This document shows positions 16,337 through 60,780 of a stretch of DNA of 64,000 bases, one piece after another; within the stretch, counting starts at the first letter, position 1; each line of letters starts with the position of its first letter. The position numbers and the translations under genes were made by a program. Source of the DNA: Deltaproteobacteria bacterium (GTDB taxonomy: Bacteria; Desulfobacterota; Binatia; UBA9968; JAJDTQ01); assembly GCA_026712905.1 (NCBI GenBank), contig JAPOPM010000038.1, positions 1-64,000 of the forward strand. Reading direction: 5' to 3'. The notes beneath the pieces are model-generated. The model ran no database searches. It had not been told where the DNA came from and saw only the letters and a list, made by a program, of their open reading frames with translations.

Positions 16337-16457
16337 GTCATTCCCGTGAAAGCGACTGCGTCAATGCTCCGGTCGGCCAGGAGACGGCACGGCCCTCCGG
16401 AAGGTCATTCCCGTGAAAGCGGCTGCGTCAATGCTCCGGTCGGCCAGGAGACGGCAC
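16337..16457. repeat. Two 54-base direct repeats, 67-base period
   Basis: Copies at 16337-16390 and 16404-16457 differ at one base. Each begins GTCATTCCCGTGAAAGCG, the same head as the palindromic repeats that follow, so this is a degenerate part of the interspersed family present at four places in the window. Confidence 0.85.
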
Positions 16458-16561
16458 ACGTCATTCCCGCGGAAGCGGGAATCCAGGGGCAGTGGAGGGG
16501 CACTACGGCGGCGTTTCCCCACCTCACCACCCCTGGATTCCCGCTTCCGCGGGAATGACGT
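16458..16561. repeat. 32-base perfect inverted repeat, interspersed family
   Basis: Arms 16458-16489 and 16530-16561 are exact reverse complements separated by 40 bases. Each arm contains a small internal palindrome (ATTCCCGC ... GCGGGAAT). The same 29-base core recurs at 17404-17432 and 60663-60691. The structure could fold into a long hairpin in RNA or be the two ends of a small non-autonomous element. Confidence 0.85.
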
Positions 16562-16574
16562 TCCATTACGTAGG

Positions 16575-17230: not shown

Positions 17231-17318
17231 CCTGATCCCCTCTCGGTCCCTGGATTCCCGCTTCCCAGGGTGTGTCAAAACTCCATTCGAACGAGAAATG
17301 GCAACGACATCCCATACC

Positions 17319-17368
17319 GTCATTCCCGCGAAAGCTTGCCCTCGACCCCGATCGGGGGCGGGAATCCA
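17319..17368. repeat. 50-base repeat identical (inverted) to 50634-50683
   Basis: This 50-base unit contains the palindrome CCCCGATCGGGG and ends in the family arms. It is an exact reverse complement of 50634-50683, more than 33 kb away. Part of the interspersed repeat patch 17250-17490 that fills most of the 413 bases between the NUDIX gene and tmk. Confidence 0.9.
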
Positions 17369-17403
17369 TGGGTTGGGAGGGGCCAAACGGGCGTGTTTCC
17401 CCG

Positions 17404-17486
17404 CCTGGATTCCCGCTTCCGCGGGAATGACGTTCCGTAGGGTCCTTGCCTCACGGGTCTTGACACAGCCTGTCTCGCGGGAATGA
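17404..17486. repeat. Interspersed palindromic repeat copy
   Basis: Positions 17404-17432 match the 29-base core at 16532-16560 exactly, followed by the TTGCCTCACGGGTCTTGACA module and a terminal CGCGGGAATGACG. The order core, spacer, TTGACACAG module, GGGAATGACG tail is the same as at 16532-16614, which defines the full unit as about 83 bases. Confidence 0.85.
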
Positions 17487-21868: not shown

Positions 21869-22747
21869 ATGATCGACGGCACCACGAAACTGCTGGGCGT
21901 GCTGGGCTGGCCGGTGGAGCACTCCAAATCGCCGGTGATGCACAACGCGGCCATACAAGCCGCCGGCCTGAACGCGTGCTACGTCCCCTTCCCGTGTCGG
22001 CCCGAGGCCCTGGGCGACGTCATCGCCGGCCTGCGCGGCCTCGGGTTTCTCGGGGCCAACCTGACCATCCCGCACAAGCAGGCGGTCATCCCTCACCTCG
22101 ACGGCCTGAGCGAGGAGTCCCGCTTCACCGGGAGCGTCAACACCCTCTACTGGGAAGGCGACCGGCTGATGGGGACCACTACCGACGCCCCGGGCGCCGT
22201 GCTGAACCTCCGCGAAGCCGGTCTTGAACTGGACGGCAGGCGCGTCGTGATCCTCGGCAATGGCGGCGCGGCTCGGGCGCTCGCCTTCGTGCTGGCCCGG
22301 GGCACCTGCGCGGGAACCGGCGGGGTCGACGAGACCTTCCGGTTGCCGGAACTCACCCTGCTGGGCCGGGACGCCGGAAAAGCCGGCGCGCTGGCGCAAG
22401 ACGTTGCGGCGGCCAGCGCGGCAGGCACGGCGGTGCGCTCAGGCCCGCTGACCGATTTCGCCGCCTTCGGTGGAGAAGCCGACCTCATCATCAACTGCAC
22501 ATCGGTGGGCATGGCCCCGGACGTTCGAGGTTGTCCCATCGACCCCGCCCTCCTGGAACCGCGCCACGCCGTCTACGACATCGTCTACCAGCCCCGGGAG
22601 ACCGTGCTCCTCCGGGAGGCCCGACACATGGGATGCCGGACGGTGGAGGGCATCGGCATGCTCGTGCACCAGGGCGCCGCGTCCTTCCGCACCTGGTTCG
22701 GGCGAGATCCGGACACCGCCGTCATGTTCGCGGTACTCGGAGAGTGA
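21869..22747 (+). CDS. aroE: Shikimate dehydrogenase
   Basis: 292 residues. Shikimate-binding HSKSPVMHN near 18-26, the catalytic Lys in TIPHKQAV near 71, and the NADP loop GNGGAARA near 130. Reduces 3-dehydroshikimate to shikimate with NADPH. The substrate-binding motif usually reads GxNTDxxG; here it is GTTTDAPG, so the Asn is Thr while the Asp is kept. Last gene of the tmk run; the accessory island starts 79 bases after its stop. Confidence 0.95.
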   Translation: MIDGTTKLLGVLGWPVEHSKSPVMHNAAIQAAGLNACYVPFPCRPEALGDVIAGLRGLGFLGANLTIPHKQAVIPHLDGLSEESRFTGSVNTLYWEGDRLMGTTTDAPGAVLNLREAGLELDGRRVVILGNGGAARALAFVLARGTCAGTGGVDETFRLPELTLLGRDAGKAGALAQDVAAASAAGTAVRSGPLTDFAAFGGEADLIINCTSVGMAPDVRGCPIDPALLEPRHAVYDIVYQPRETVLLREARHMGCRTVEGIGMLVHQGAASFRTWFGRDPDTAVMFAVLGE

Positions 22748-22826: not shown

Positions 22827-24950
22827 TCAAGACTCTCCCAAACGGTCAATCTCGGTTCGCAGTCCAGCCAACTCTTCTAGGATGTCGCTCCTTCTTCGAA
22901 CGGGTCGCTCGTATTCCTGCCATCGTTCAAACTGCCTGAGCAAGGCGTCAACCTGACCTGAATTGTCCTTCAGAACCTTGTCCATCGTCGTTGGCCTTGC
23001 CCCGTTTCGAAAAGCGTTCAAGCAGCAGATGGCCAGCATGCGGTCGTTTCCACCCAGATACCCGAGATCCCGCGCCAGGACTTCCCCATAGTCGTCGACA
23101 ACGGTTGCCGACTCAGATTCCCCTTGTCCTTCTGACTCGCCGAAAACCGCAGGATGCCTTGCGAACAGGCGACCGATGTGCGTCTCGATCCGTTCCACGA
23201 GATGGGCCAAGGAAATTGTCAACCAACACTCCCGTGCACCTTCGAATACTTCGCGCCACAGTTCTCCTGCCTTATCGCGACGGTTATGGTTGGTCAGCCA
23301 GTCAACACCCGACGTTCCGGCAGCGAGAAGAAACAAGGAAGGCGCCAGCGCATCACTGTCCTGCGTTTCGCGCCAGTGCTGGACCCGCCGCCTTTGCTCG
23401 GTGAGCAACTCCCAGGATTTTCGCCACCGTAGAGTGGGTTCCTTCGCTCTCGCGAACAGGAGTCCACAGCTATTCGCCGGCAGCCCACCGGCCGTCGGAT
23501 CGAGAGCGGCTTCCCTATCGAAGGCTGGATCACGAGTCCCCAACAACGCGTCCAGCAGAGTAATGTTCTTGCCAGGATCAACGTCGCAACCCTCGTTGAT
23601 CATGTGATCCAAGACCGTCATCATCGACAGGCCGTCAAGGTGGACAGAGGGTTGCCGTCCATCGGCTGGCTCCGGCGGCAACGGAGAAAACTTGCGGGTG
23701 CTCGATCTGTCCGGAAAGTCACTCTGGGCAGCAAGATGTTTTCCGGATAATCCGGCCCTGGAAAGGCCGACCGCGATCCATTCGATCAGATCGTCCTGAC
23801 GCAGGTAGTCTTGGTGCGGCTCTCCTGCTGTGGCGCCATGCGGACGGTGCGTGCGCTCATCGGAAGCCTTCAGCAGCAGCCATTGTGAGCCAAGAAAATC
23901 ACCATCGCGGCGCTCCATGACTATTTGGGCGAGCCCTTCAACCCACGACGAAAGAACTGCAGTTGCTTTTTCCATGGTCGCCAAGAGAGCCCCGTCCAGG
24001 TCGTCCTGCCTGCGCACGATCTGCCAACGATCGTGGCAGTGACGTTCGGCAGCCTCCAGAATCAGTAGGACTGTCAGACGATGGTTCCAGGAGCACTCGT
24101 CATCTCTGCAGATCGGTGCTGCCCCGAGGGCGGCGGCGATCTCGTCGCGGTCGTGCAGGAACGTGTGGTGCTGCAGGATCTGCCGTATGGGATGCGGGAA
24201 GTCAAAGGCGTCGACGAGTTCGAGGACGCGGACTCTGTCCACCGGCAGGATCAACGGCACCAGGTTCAAGAGATTGTAATGGACGGGAAACCATGGGTCT
24301 CGTGCCAACCAATTCTTCAGAAGAGACTTCTCCGACCGGAGTGTCCCTACGAGAGCGTTGAACGCTTCACGTTCACCTGAGTACGTTCCGAGCCCAGGAT
24401 CTCTATTGATGTCTTCGAATCGAGCATTTAGGTCCCGCAGGAGGGCTTGGAAAGCCAATGGTGACCGGCGCAACAGTTCCGGTATCGCCTCACCGAATGC
24501 CACGCTCATCAGGGCGTTGGAACTGACCAAATCCCAGACGCCGGATAGCACACGTCCCGCTGAACCGTCCGCTACCACGAATTCTTTTGTGATCGCGTTG
24601 GCCAGACCTGTTCCGAACAACCACGCGGCGACGTGTTTCCGAGGGTCCTCGCGGTTCTCAAGTAGCGCCGTGAAGCCAGTTTGCAAAGATTGCCGTTTCT
24701 TCACATTGCGAACGAATTCAAAGGTCAGCGACGTGGACCCGGGAAGTGCCAAGAGATCGGACAGATTGGAACCGTCAGGCCCAGGGTCGAGAATGTCCGT
24801 GCCGAACAGTGTTTGCCTGCACCACTCCGCCAGCCCCACGACGAGGTCTTCAGCGTCAAGCAACTGTCGCGCCTCAGCGCGAGCTGTGGCAGCCGCCCTT
24901 TGTGTGGCTGCAAGAGAAGGGTCGTCGTGCTCGAACAATGGATCACGCAT
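22827..24950 (-). CDS. Large protein of unknown function in accessory island
   Basis: 707 residues from ATG 24950. The start is chosen because ATGCGTGA overlaps the stop of the previous gene and GGAG lies upstream; the frame extends back to 24989. No nucleotide-binding loop, HKD, zinc or membrane segment was recognised. The sequence is mostly helical in character, with a C-terminal stretch (RRRSDILEELAGLRTEIDRL, about the last 25 residues) that resembles a coiled coil. Base composition is lower in GC than the flanking genes. Co-transcribed with the two PLD-like genes upstream. It may be a scaffold or sensor of the same system, an inference from operon structure only. Confidence 0.8.
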   Translation of the reverse strand: MRDPLFEHDDPSLAATQRAAATARAEARQLLDAEDLVVGLAEWCRQTLFGTDILDPGPDGSNLSDLLALPGSTSLTFEFVRNVKKRQSLQTGFTALLENREDPRKHVAAWLFGTGLANAITKEFVVADGSAGRVLSGVWDLVSSNALMSVAFGEAIPELLRRSPLAFQALLRDLNARFEDINRDPGLGTYSGEREAFNALVGTLRSEKSLLKNWLARDPWFPVHYNLLNLVPLILPVDRVRVLELVDAFDFPHPIRQILQHHTFLHDRDEIAAALGAAPICRDDECSWNHRLTVLLILEAAERHCHDRWQIVRRQDDLDGALLATMEKATAVLSSWVEGLAQIVMERRDGDFLGSQWLLLKASDERTHRPHGATAGEPHQDYLRQDDLIEWIAVGLSRAGLSGKHLAAQSDFPDRSSTRKFSPLPPEPADGRQPSVHLDGLSMMTVLDHMINEGCDVDPGKNITLLDALLGTRDPAFDREAALDPTAGGLPANSCGLLFARAKEPTLRWRKSWELLTEQRRRVQHWRETQDSDALAPSLFLLAAGTSGVDWLTNHNRRDKAGELWREVFEGARECWLTISLAHLVERIETHIGRLFARHPAVFGESEGQGESESATVVDDYGEVLARDLGYLGGNDRMLAICCLNAFRNGARPTTMDKVLKDNSGQVDALLRQFERWQEYERPVRRRSDILEELAGLRTEIDRLGES

Positions 24951-25584
24951 TGCAAGCGCTCCAGCATTCTTCAAAGAAATGCCGTGCACGAGTCTCGGCT
25001 TCAGACCAGGGTCCGCTTGCTGCCGTCACTCCGGGATGTCCGCCGCCAACTGTCGCGCCGAAGTGCCATAGCGCCCCGTCCACGATGGCAAACCGGTCGT
25101 GCAAGAACGGGAACCGATGCCGATCCAGTGTACTGCTCCAGCGCACCTCTGCCAAGTCGGACCCGGACCGGTTCATGTTGCGGAATTGGGTAAGTGTGTC
25201 CTTGAGTTCGGCCATGCCCCGTTCTCCCGTTGCGCTGCCACCGGTAAGCAAACGGATATCCCCGGCATGGCTCGATGCGAGTGGGAACGCCAAGGCGTTA
25301 ACGCCCAATTCGTCGAAATGAGGGTCCAGGACCAGGACGTGATCCAATGATTGGCCGACGGCCGCTTGAAATGTCGTGAGTGCCAAGTCTTTGCGGGCAG
25401 TTCCCTTGTTATATCGCTGAACGACCTGATTCCGATCAGGGAATCGAGGTCGATCGCGATTGTCGATCCCTTGCCCGTATTCTATCGAGGGCCACAAGAT
25501 CCGTGCGACCCCCAACTCGGCCGAACGCCGATGCGCCCATGCCTCTCTCAAGTCCTCGGTTTTTTCGGGCCGCAGCCGACTCAT
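24943..25584 (-). CDS. Phospholipase D-like protein, single half-site
   Basis: 213 residues. A C-terminal PLD-type module is seen: a strand-turn DHVLVLDPHFDELGV at 81-95 and the half-site HDRFAIVD at 162-169, that is H-x-R-x4-D, the HKD motif with Arg in place of Lys. The same two elements occur in the C-terminal part of the upstream 535-residue protein, so the two are likely paralogous in this domain. One half-site per chain implies a dimer, as in Nuc and BfiI nucleases. The N-terminus (1-75) is of unknown kind. It starts 48 bases after the upstream gene, in the same frame, and its stop overlaps the start of the 707-residue gene by eight bases. Confidence 0.75.
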   Translation of the reverse strand: MSRLRPEKTEDLREAWAHRRSAELGVARILWPSIEYGQGIDNRDRPRFPDRNQVVQRYNKGTARKDLALTTFQAAVGQSLDHVLVLDPHFDELGVNALAFPLASSHAGDIRLLTGGSATGERGMAELKDTLTQFRNMNRSGSDLAEVRWSSTLDRHRFPFLHDRFAIVDGALWHFGATVGGGHPGVTAASGPWSEAETRARHFFEECWSACNA

Positions 25585-25632
25585 GGGTGAAAGGCATTCG
25601 CTGCATGCGGGGTGGCCAGCCCATACATGGCC

Positions 25633-27240
25633 TCAATCTCCCGCCGTTGTGTTGCGCCGGTTTGACAACCAGTCTGCCAAGCTCGGCGCCCTACGCCAGA
25701 ACGCTTCGAGTCGTTCGATGACTGGCTCCGGATCGGGTAGTCGCACGATCATTGCCGCACGCTCGCCAAGAGTGCTCAGAGAATTCCCCGAGAGCCAGAC
25801 GTTTCTGTCGACGACCAGGAAGCGGTCATGCACGTCAGGTGTCTTGCCACGAAGTATACGAACCTCCGGTCTTATCGATGGTGTATCGAAGGTTTCTTCC
25901 AGGGCTCGCTGGAGTTGCGACCCCCGATCCTTGTCCGCCGAATCGTCGATCCCTTCTCTCAGGCCACGGGCCGACGTCAAAATATGCAGACTCACGGCCG
26001 GCCGCCGCTTCGCGTGGCCGAACTCCAGTAGTCCGCGGGCGTCGAAATACGGATCGACGATGACAACCTGGTCATGCGCACGACCGATTAACCCACGCAA
26101 ATAATGTGCCGCGTCAGCGGGTGCTTGGTGGAACCACCGCTGGTCGTGTTCCCGCGCCGCCTGTTGACGTGCTCTGCGTGCCTCGGTAGCCGTGAGGCGA
26201 GAAACTATGTCCTGGTCTGTCAGCGGTTCGCCTATAACCACCTCCCCCGCGTCGTCGACCTCCTCCACCCGGTAGTTGTAACCGGGACGCTTGCGGCCAC
26301 CGGCCGGAACGAACACCTCCTTCTGTCGACGGGGTAGTTCCATCCCGACATGCACGGTCCTCAATACCGGAAGAGGTTCGTGCCAACTGAACAACCCGTG
26401 GTCGGGGTGCGCGATCGACTCGCCCTCACTGTACACTTCGGCCGGTGAGTCAAAGACGACGATCGGATCCTTCCCGAATTCATGGACCATCGGCACCATG
26501 CGTCCCCGTGGGCGTTCGTTGACGACTTCCAATCGCAAACCGTCAACACTGTGACCGTGGCGAGCGACGATCTTGTATGCAATGGATTTAGCCGCGTTTG
26601 AGCGGGCGTTTTCGAGGTGGGATTTTTCGACGGCTCGAAACACAGGGTTTGGGGCAACTAGGCAGATCGCTCCCAGGTACTCACGGTACGTATGGACAAC
26701 GTCAAAATTGAGCCATTCTGTCAACTTTTCACGGATCTTGTCGCCCTCGACAGTGTGTTCGATCTTGGCGGGAAGAACGTTTTTCGGGAACAGGAAATGC
26801 GCCCGCGAACCATGCATCCAGTCGGGCGCGAAAACCAACTCGTTCGATGTGACGAGATGGGGCCACGGTGGCTCCTGAACGAAAGGACCGCCGTGAAGCC
26901 TTTTCTGTTGGACGGGCTCTTGTTCGTCAGGGAACGTGAGAACATCCCGCATCGTGTTCGTGTACCACGCAATGGCATCGCCCACCGAGGACGCGAAGCG
27001 CTGGTAGTAGACGTACGCGCGGCCCTTACTCCCGGACCGAAGGGCCTTTGTCGAACAACCCGAGTCATGCGGAAGTTCGGCGGGACGCAATTCGACCATC
27101 CCAAACACCAAATGGTAGGTATCGTCGTCGCGGAACCACGCAAGGTGGATGATTGACTGGCCATATCCTTCCAACTCCATTGTCATCACCTGCGGCATTC
27201 CGTGTACGATGGCGACCCTGACGCCAATGCCATGCGCCAC
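25633..27240 (-). CDS. Protein with C-terminal phospholipase D-like domain, VPA1262-like candidate
   Basis: 535 residues from GTG 27240; ATG 27180 has the better ribosome site (AGGTGAT) and would give 515. The C-terminal 150 residues hold a PLD-like module: DQVVIVDPYFDARGL near 390, then HDRFLVVDRNVWLSG with H471, R473 and D478 as an HxRx4D half-site. Residues 1-370 are a large domain that I do not recognise with certainty. The organisation recalls proteins of the VPA1262 N-terminal-domain family, found in mobile islands, but this is from memory and weak. First gene of the three-gene island operon. A nuclease role in defence is possible but not shown. Confidence 0.75.
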   Translation of the reverse strand: MAHGIGVRVAIVHGMPQVMTMELEGYGQSIIHLAWFRDDDTYHLVFGMVELRPAELPHDSGCSTKALRSGSKGRAYVYYQRFASSVGDAIAWYTNTMRDVLTFPDEQEPVQQKRLHGGPFVQEPPWPHLVTSNELVFAPDWMHGSRAHFLFPKNVLPAKIEHTVEGDKIREKLTEWLNFDVVHTYREYLGAICLVAPNPVFRAVEKSHLENARSNAAKSIAYKIVARHGHSVDGLRLEVVNERPRGRMVPMVHEFGKDPIVVFDSPAEVYSEGESIAHPDHGLFSWHEPLPVLRTVHVGMELPRRQKEVFVPAGGRKRPGYNYRVEEVDDAGEVVIGEPLTDQDIVSRLTATEARRARQQAAREHDQRWFHQAPADAAHYLRGLIGRAHDQVVIVDPYFDARGLLEFGHAKRRPAVSLHILTSARGLREGIDDSADKDRGSQLQRALEETFDTPSIRPEVRILRGKTPDVHDRFLVVDRNVWLSGNSLSTLGERAAMIVRLPDPEPVIERLEAFWRRAPSLADWLSNRRNTTAGD

Positions 27241-27342
27241 TGGCTCACATAAGTCTAACGAACTGACACAAACAAATATAGGGAGAGTTGGGGCACCTGC
27301 GAGACCAGCGAAGGCATTATGGACTTGTCAGTCTAGTGAGGC

Positions 27343-27378
27343 AAAAAAAAGGGGGAAGGACTGGGTCCTCCCCCTTTT
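27343..27378 (-). terminator. Rho-independent terminator after groEL
   Basis: On the minus strand a stem of AAAAGGGGGAGGAC paired with GTCCTTCCCCCTTTT around a short loop ends in a run of T (27343-27350 on plus is A-rich). It lies 34 bases past the groEL stop. The plus-strand reading also has TTTT, so it may act in both directions and shield the island from groE transcription. Confidence 0.85.
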
Positions 27379-27411: not shown

Positions 27412-29043
<1,632 letters not shown>

Positions 29044-60662: not shown

Positions 60663-60691
60663 CCTGGATTCCCGCTTCCGCGGGAATGACG
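60663..60691. repeat. 29-base interspersed repeat core
   Basis: Exact copy of the core at 16532-16560 and 17404-17432, between gyrA and gpsA (gap 60627-60780). A diverged tail follows (TTGCCACAGCCGTGTTTCGC at about 60731-60750). Confidence 0.9.
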
Positions 60692-60780
60692 GTAAGTGGC
60701 GTTCGTGCCATTTCGTGTCCAAGCACATTCTTGCCACAGCCGTGTTTCGCGGAAATGACCGAGGATGCGGGAATGAAGCC

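Follow-up and report, generated by a model that had tools for sequence, protein, structure and literature searches.

A three-gene cassette with two PLD half-site proteins at the aroE-groEL junction of a Binatia bacterium, a probable horizontally moved defence cassette

The window (the whole stretch of DNA that was analysed, 64,000 nt, with coordinates counted from its position 1) carries three genes on the minus strand between aroE (21869-22747) and groEL (27412-29028). Gene A (25633-27240) encodes 535 aa with a VPA1262-family N-terminal domain and a single PLD half-site at the C-terminus, gene B (24943-25584) encodes a second single-half-site PLD protein of 213 aa, and gene C (22827-24950) encodes 707 aa when read from the ATG at 24950. 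A GTG at 24989 would serve as an alternative start for C and give 720 aa (ORF 22827-24989, minus strand). Translation of A probably starts at M19 or M21 (about 27186) rather than at 27240, because the alignment with the nearest relative begins at 27190. The GC content of the cassette is 58.8% versus 65.9% elsewhere in the window and is the window's minimum for segments of that size, while GC3 was 0.64-0.67 in the cassette versus 0.86-0.94 in aroE, groEL and metG. ORFs, GC and GC3 all agree with the preliminary description, which had placed a low-GC minus-strand unit of three genes at this site and had the start of C lying within the end of B; the two genes overlap by 8 bases (24943-24950).

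A sigma-70-like promoter candidate (TTGCCT-17-CATAAT, 27316-27344, minus strand) was located upstream of A at a score near chance level. An intrinsic terminator of groEL (predicted stem, 27347-27378, minus strand) parts that gene from the cassette, and a comparable stem stands beside groEL in genomes where the site is empty. Short dispersed REP/MITE-like repeats in both orientations were noted at 16454-16562, 17237-17435 and 60663-60741 of the window, and also in the contig of the nearest relative.

Motif scanning found one HxRx4D half-site in each PLD protein, at A471 and B162, within the HDRF module that the preliminary description had reported as common to both. The half-site of A reads HDRFLVVD (H471, R473, D478; 25807-25830, minus strand) and is followed by WLSGNSL, and that of B reads HDRFAIVD (H162, R164, D169; 25078-25101, minus strand) and is followed by WHFGATVGG. 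Screened against NCBIfam, A scored 202.9 bits with NF040700 (VPA1262_N_dom; cut-off 80) over profile positions 4-477 of 478, and can be assigned by this profile to that family, which is named but functionally blank. Residues H471, D472, R473, D478, W482, G485 and S487 were invariant across 10 relatives of A (alignment A1). Pfam PLDc_2 was matched by 7 of 10 relatives (best 1e-9), and by the A of the window below threshold (E 0.2). Gene B was matched to the C-terminal part of NF040700 (E 3.9e-5), and its half-site did not vary among the relatives in alignments A2 and A4; a weak HTH_7 match (E 0.19) was left out of the evidence.

The C protein had been described as free of recognised motifs, and none was matched in Pfam, NCBIfam, PADLOC, PHROGs or the PDB sequences. 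It was predicted to be all-helical, the model containing helices only at a low confidence (pLDDT 39.5) that was too low for a fold search. Homology of C across sets was detected with profiles at E 9e-7, and at 1.5e-5 to plasmid sets with A and C only, versus 0.05 or worse for unrelated controls. A HEAT match of one C relative (E 0.083) was left out of the evidence.

The aroE-groEL junction was examined in related Binatia genomes and was empty in four of the same genus (G395, G397, G398 and G400); by comparison of these sequences the cassette can be recognised as an insertion between the two genes. The nearest relative, a Binatia MAG contig (L001), carries the cassette at the identical site with 85% identity at the DNA level. 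All three genes are open in both, dN/dS between the two copies was 0.31, 0.29 and 0.27, and dS of the cassette genes was similar to that of the adjacent aroE. These ratios indicate purifying selection on A, B and C alike, and together with the open frames and the aroE-like dS they imply that the cassette has been kept by selection since the lineages split. In the nearest relative aroE is present twice in tandem (L001:12580-15361), one copy adjoining the cassette. The same-genus genome G395, empty at this junction, holds a whole set at a different place (L053) with 38-47% identity, so the set has moved more than once.

Complete sets in the order A-B-C were found in seven distinct loci including the window, across Binatia, beta- and gammaproteobacteria and temperate phages, which bears out the earlier expectation that the three genes would be found together. 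Besides the window and L001 at the shared site, and the divergent G395 copy, these were Burkholderia glumae plasmids (L014/L018), a Klebsiella variicola plasmid (L017), an enterobacterial prophage contig (L068) and a P2-like phage contig (L065). An eighth locus, in Azospirillum (L013), would be complete but for a frameshift in B; the gene for a 1314-aa ATP-binding SMC-like protein (L013:5012-8956), weakly similar to LmuB, DndD and PbeC, ends 32 bases upstream of its A. A prophage copy (L069) runs from A through B up to the contig end. On three alphaproteobacterial plasmids (L015, L016 and L019) A is followed directly by a C homologue with B absent, and A and C are therefore taken as the core and B as a frequent third component. 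At two further loci (L064 and L055) A is followed by a gene in which comparison with C as a homologue detected nothing. Intergenic gaps in the sets were short or negative. Divergence of A, B and C was parallel across the sets (Pearson r 0.95-0.99), a relation that leans mainly on a few close pairs, Spearman coefficients being only 0.52-0.56 for the two comparisons with B. The survey across bacteria was partial: a scan of genome contigs with A alone gave one relative, and no copy of the cassette was found in the phage collection searched or in E. coli genomes searched by DNA.

Among the plasmid records found with A, 5 of 7 were typed as conjugative. The genes might be passengers of mobile elements that serve the element's own DNA processing (e.g. 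recombination or repair) outside defence, as some copies lie near recombinases, transposases or imuA/error-prone polymerase genes. Against that, the set recurs on unrelated elements, and the insertion in the window holds no integrase or transposase; a search there for terminal repeats, integrase and transposon ends returned only repeats at chance level. Such a passenger role is considered very improbable.

The genomic context points to defence. On the P2-like phage contig the set has the portal gene (phrog_68, E 1e-166) on one side and the replication nickase gene (phrog_91, E 2e-269) on the other. The gpQ-gpA interval of P2-like phages is a hotspot of anti-phage systems (Rousset et al., PMC9122126), and on these gene assignments the cassette is located exactly in that hotspot. 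Beside it (L065:12781-14535) is a further possible defence gene, whose 584-aa ATPase-like product was matched by neither PADLOC nor PHROG models. In a sister genome (G399) the same aroE-groEL site is occupied by a SoFic-type Fic gene (L058:3241-4335, 377 bits), and in this genus the junction resembles a hotspot where defence genes integrate. The surroundings of groEL in a further genome (G396, L060:1902-7037) are unusual, with genes for a type II-like DNA methyltransferase, for an adenylosuccinate-synthetase-like protein whose N-terminal part is kinase-like, and for a CapP/ImmA-like protein whose C-terminal stretch is possibly DarG-like. A Dsr2-type SIR2 protein (601 bits) and an AbiJ-like protein were found near other copies, and some copies adjoin ordinary genes. 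As is expected of anti-phage systems, the cassette is a conserved multi-gene unit that recurs in defence hotspots and on mobile elements. A defence role is likely by guilt by association, from several independent placements.

A module for plasmid or phage maintenance or for conflict between elements was also weighed, toxin-antitoxin-like, in which A, B or both would be toxic and C would neutralise them. The tight coupling of the genes and their occurrence on conjugative plasmids and prophages would suit it; C, however, is far bigger than the usual antitoxin and comes last in the operon, two related species have kept the set at a chromosomal site under purifying selection, and defence-gene hotspots are a more specific placement than mobile DNA generally. 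This module is regarded as quite unlikely. The reading preferred here, and held with fair confidence, is a horizontally moved defence cassette whose effector is a PLD nuclease and whose targets are phages or other mobile DNA. Anatomy and genomic context are what supports this reading, the function is probable, and protection itself we infer.

The fold of the HDRF module was modelled. Residues 370-530 of A were modelled as a PLD half-domain at a pLDDT of about 80, with low confidence in the N-terminal part, and the fold matched Nuc (1byr, TM 0.69) and NucT (6ehi, TM 0.62) and also Zucchini and SauUSI. On this model the module of A is a predicted half-domain of the PLD superfamily with an HxKx4D-type motif. 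The B profile matched the profile of the PLD domain of A at E 1.5e-12; by this comparison the modules of B and A can be called homologous, the PLD assignment of B being made via the profile to A only. The PLD fold proposed in the preliminary description was thus upheld, by the model for A and by the profile match for B. Among viral structures a search gave four matches, all to PLD-type proteins from large viruses of eukaryotes, and none that was phage-specific.

Lipids as well as nucleic acids can be substrates of PLD domains, and the fold of A also matched phosphatidylserine synthase, phospholipase D2 and the non-catalytic DNA-binding TrmBL2. Within a defence cassette the PLD proteins could then be non-nucleolytic, acting on phospholipids (membrane-directed abortive infection) or serving as nucleic-acid-binding sensors, with C as the effector. 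That C is the largest and least conserved of the three (14-38% identity between distant sets) would agree with this, as would the prophage copy in which the half-site of A is degenerate. The small single-half-site nucleases Nuc and NucT, however, are among the best matches when the TM-score is taken over their own length, the catalytic H, R and D do not vary among relatives of A other than that copy or among intact relatives of B, and no membrane-spanning part was noticed when the protein sequences were read by eye. A non-nucleolytic role is judged unlikely.

With a PLD nuclease as the preferred effector, A and B would each supply one HxRx4D half-site and would most likely pair, or each would dimerise, to form the nuclease, since one PLD active site needs two half-sites. 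In BfiI two half-sites form one active site and both histidines are discussed as participating, and the active site of SauUSI is likewise built from two protomers (PMC7913695). BrxL-HKD proteins have been described with HxR in place of HxK, and they are presumed to retain activity (PMC12839542). The presence of two different half-site proteins in one operon suggests an A-B pair, and a composite active site specifically of A and B is proposed tentatively, at somewhat less than an even chance. Pairing would not be obligatory in the family, because B is absent from the three alphaproteobacterial plasmids. In the degenerate prophage copy (L069:6548-7942) the PLD histidine of A is replaced by Tyr (YDR) and DP by EP while the adjacent B is intact, and this A is a possible natural pseudo-enzyme. 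The arrangement is compatible with B supplying catalysis and equally with decay of A. The product of C would most likely act as a scaffold of the complex, and most likely also as a sensor of the invader or as a brake on the nuclease before infection; this role is conjectural, because the structure of C could not be predicted. The activated nuclease would cut phage or host nucleic acid. Nuclease activity, A-B pairing, the role of C, the substrate, and cell killing or survival are all putative parts of this scheme.

The cassette gives a testable function to a family named by NCBI, of which no study was found in the open-access literature. Natural variants (with B, without B, and with a degenerate A) would show how two proteins share a PLD active site, and since one copy belongs to a P2-like temperate phage, laboratory E. 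coli is a ready host for experiments.

The namesake VPA1262 is a marker of the Vibrio parahaemolyticus genomic island VPaI-6 (PMC1464126), and gene A is likewise an island gene. No published function for VPA1262 was found in the open-access literature, where mentions concern V. parahaemolyticus islands and epidemiology, and no published phage-protection test of the cassette was found there. Against the full-length model NF040699 (VPA1262_fam, 1026 positions) A scored 34.6 bits in its PLD part only, below the cut-off of 325, and was rejected as a member of the full-length subfamily; it is shorter and is partnered by B and C. The full-length model did not match C, and no full-length VPA1262 member was found whose C-terminal half could be compared with C.

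The locus had been described as a system that could not be named. PADLOC names none of the three genes as a system, which agrees, whereas A does belong to a named NCBIfam family, VPA1262_N_dom. The only PADLOC matches of the cassette were weak ones of the PLD domain to the candidate PDC-S05 (ORF6N + PLD); A matched at E 5e-10 over residues 370-507 only, versus a full-length match of E 1e-119 for a true member (L063:6023-6904), and membership was rejected. DISARM (DrmC) and Menshen (NsnC), in broadly the same way, employ a PLD protein within a defence operon of several genes; membership in either was rejected, as PADLOC gave no model match for A, B or C and no partner genes in the cassette. Nuc (1byr), NucT (6ehi), Zucchini and BfiI/SauUSI resemble the cassette proteins in the PLD half-domain fold and the HxKx4D-like motif. 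Unlike them, the cassette has HxR for HxK and GNSL where GSxN stands, and it combines two different half-site proteins in one operon without a helicase or ATPase partner. It may, at a probability that we place somewhat below even, represent a distinct and as yet unnamed type of immune system. The nuclease would then be an asymmetric composite of two different PLD half-site proteins, controlled by a large helical sensor that belongs to a new family, and splitting or fusion would relate the system to the single-protein VPA1262-like forms.
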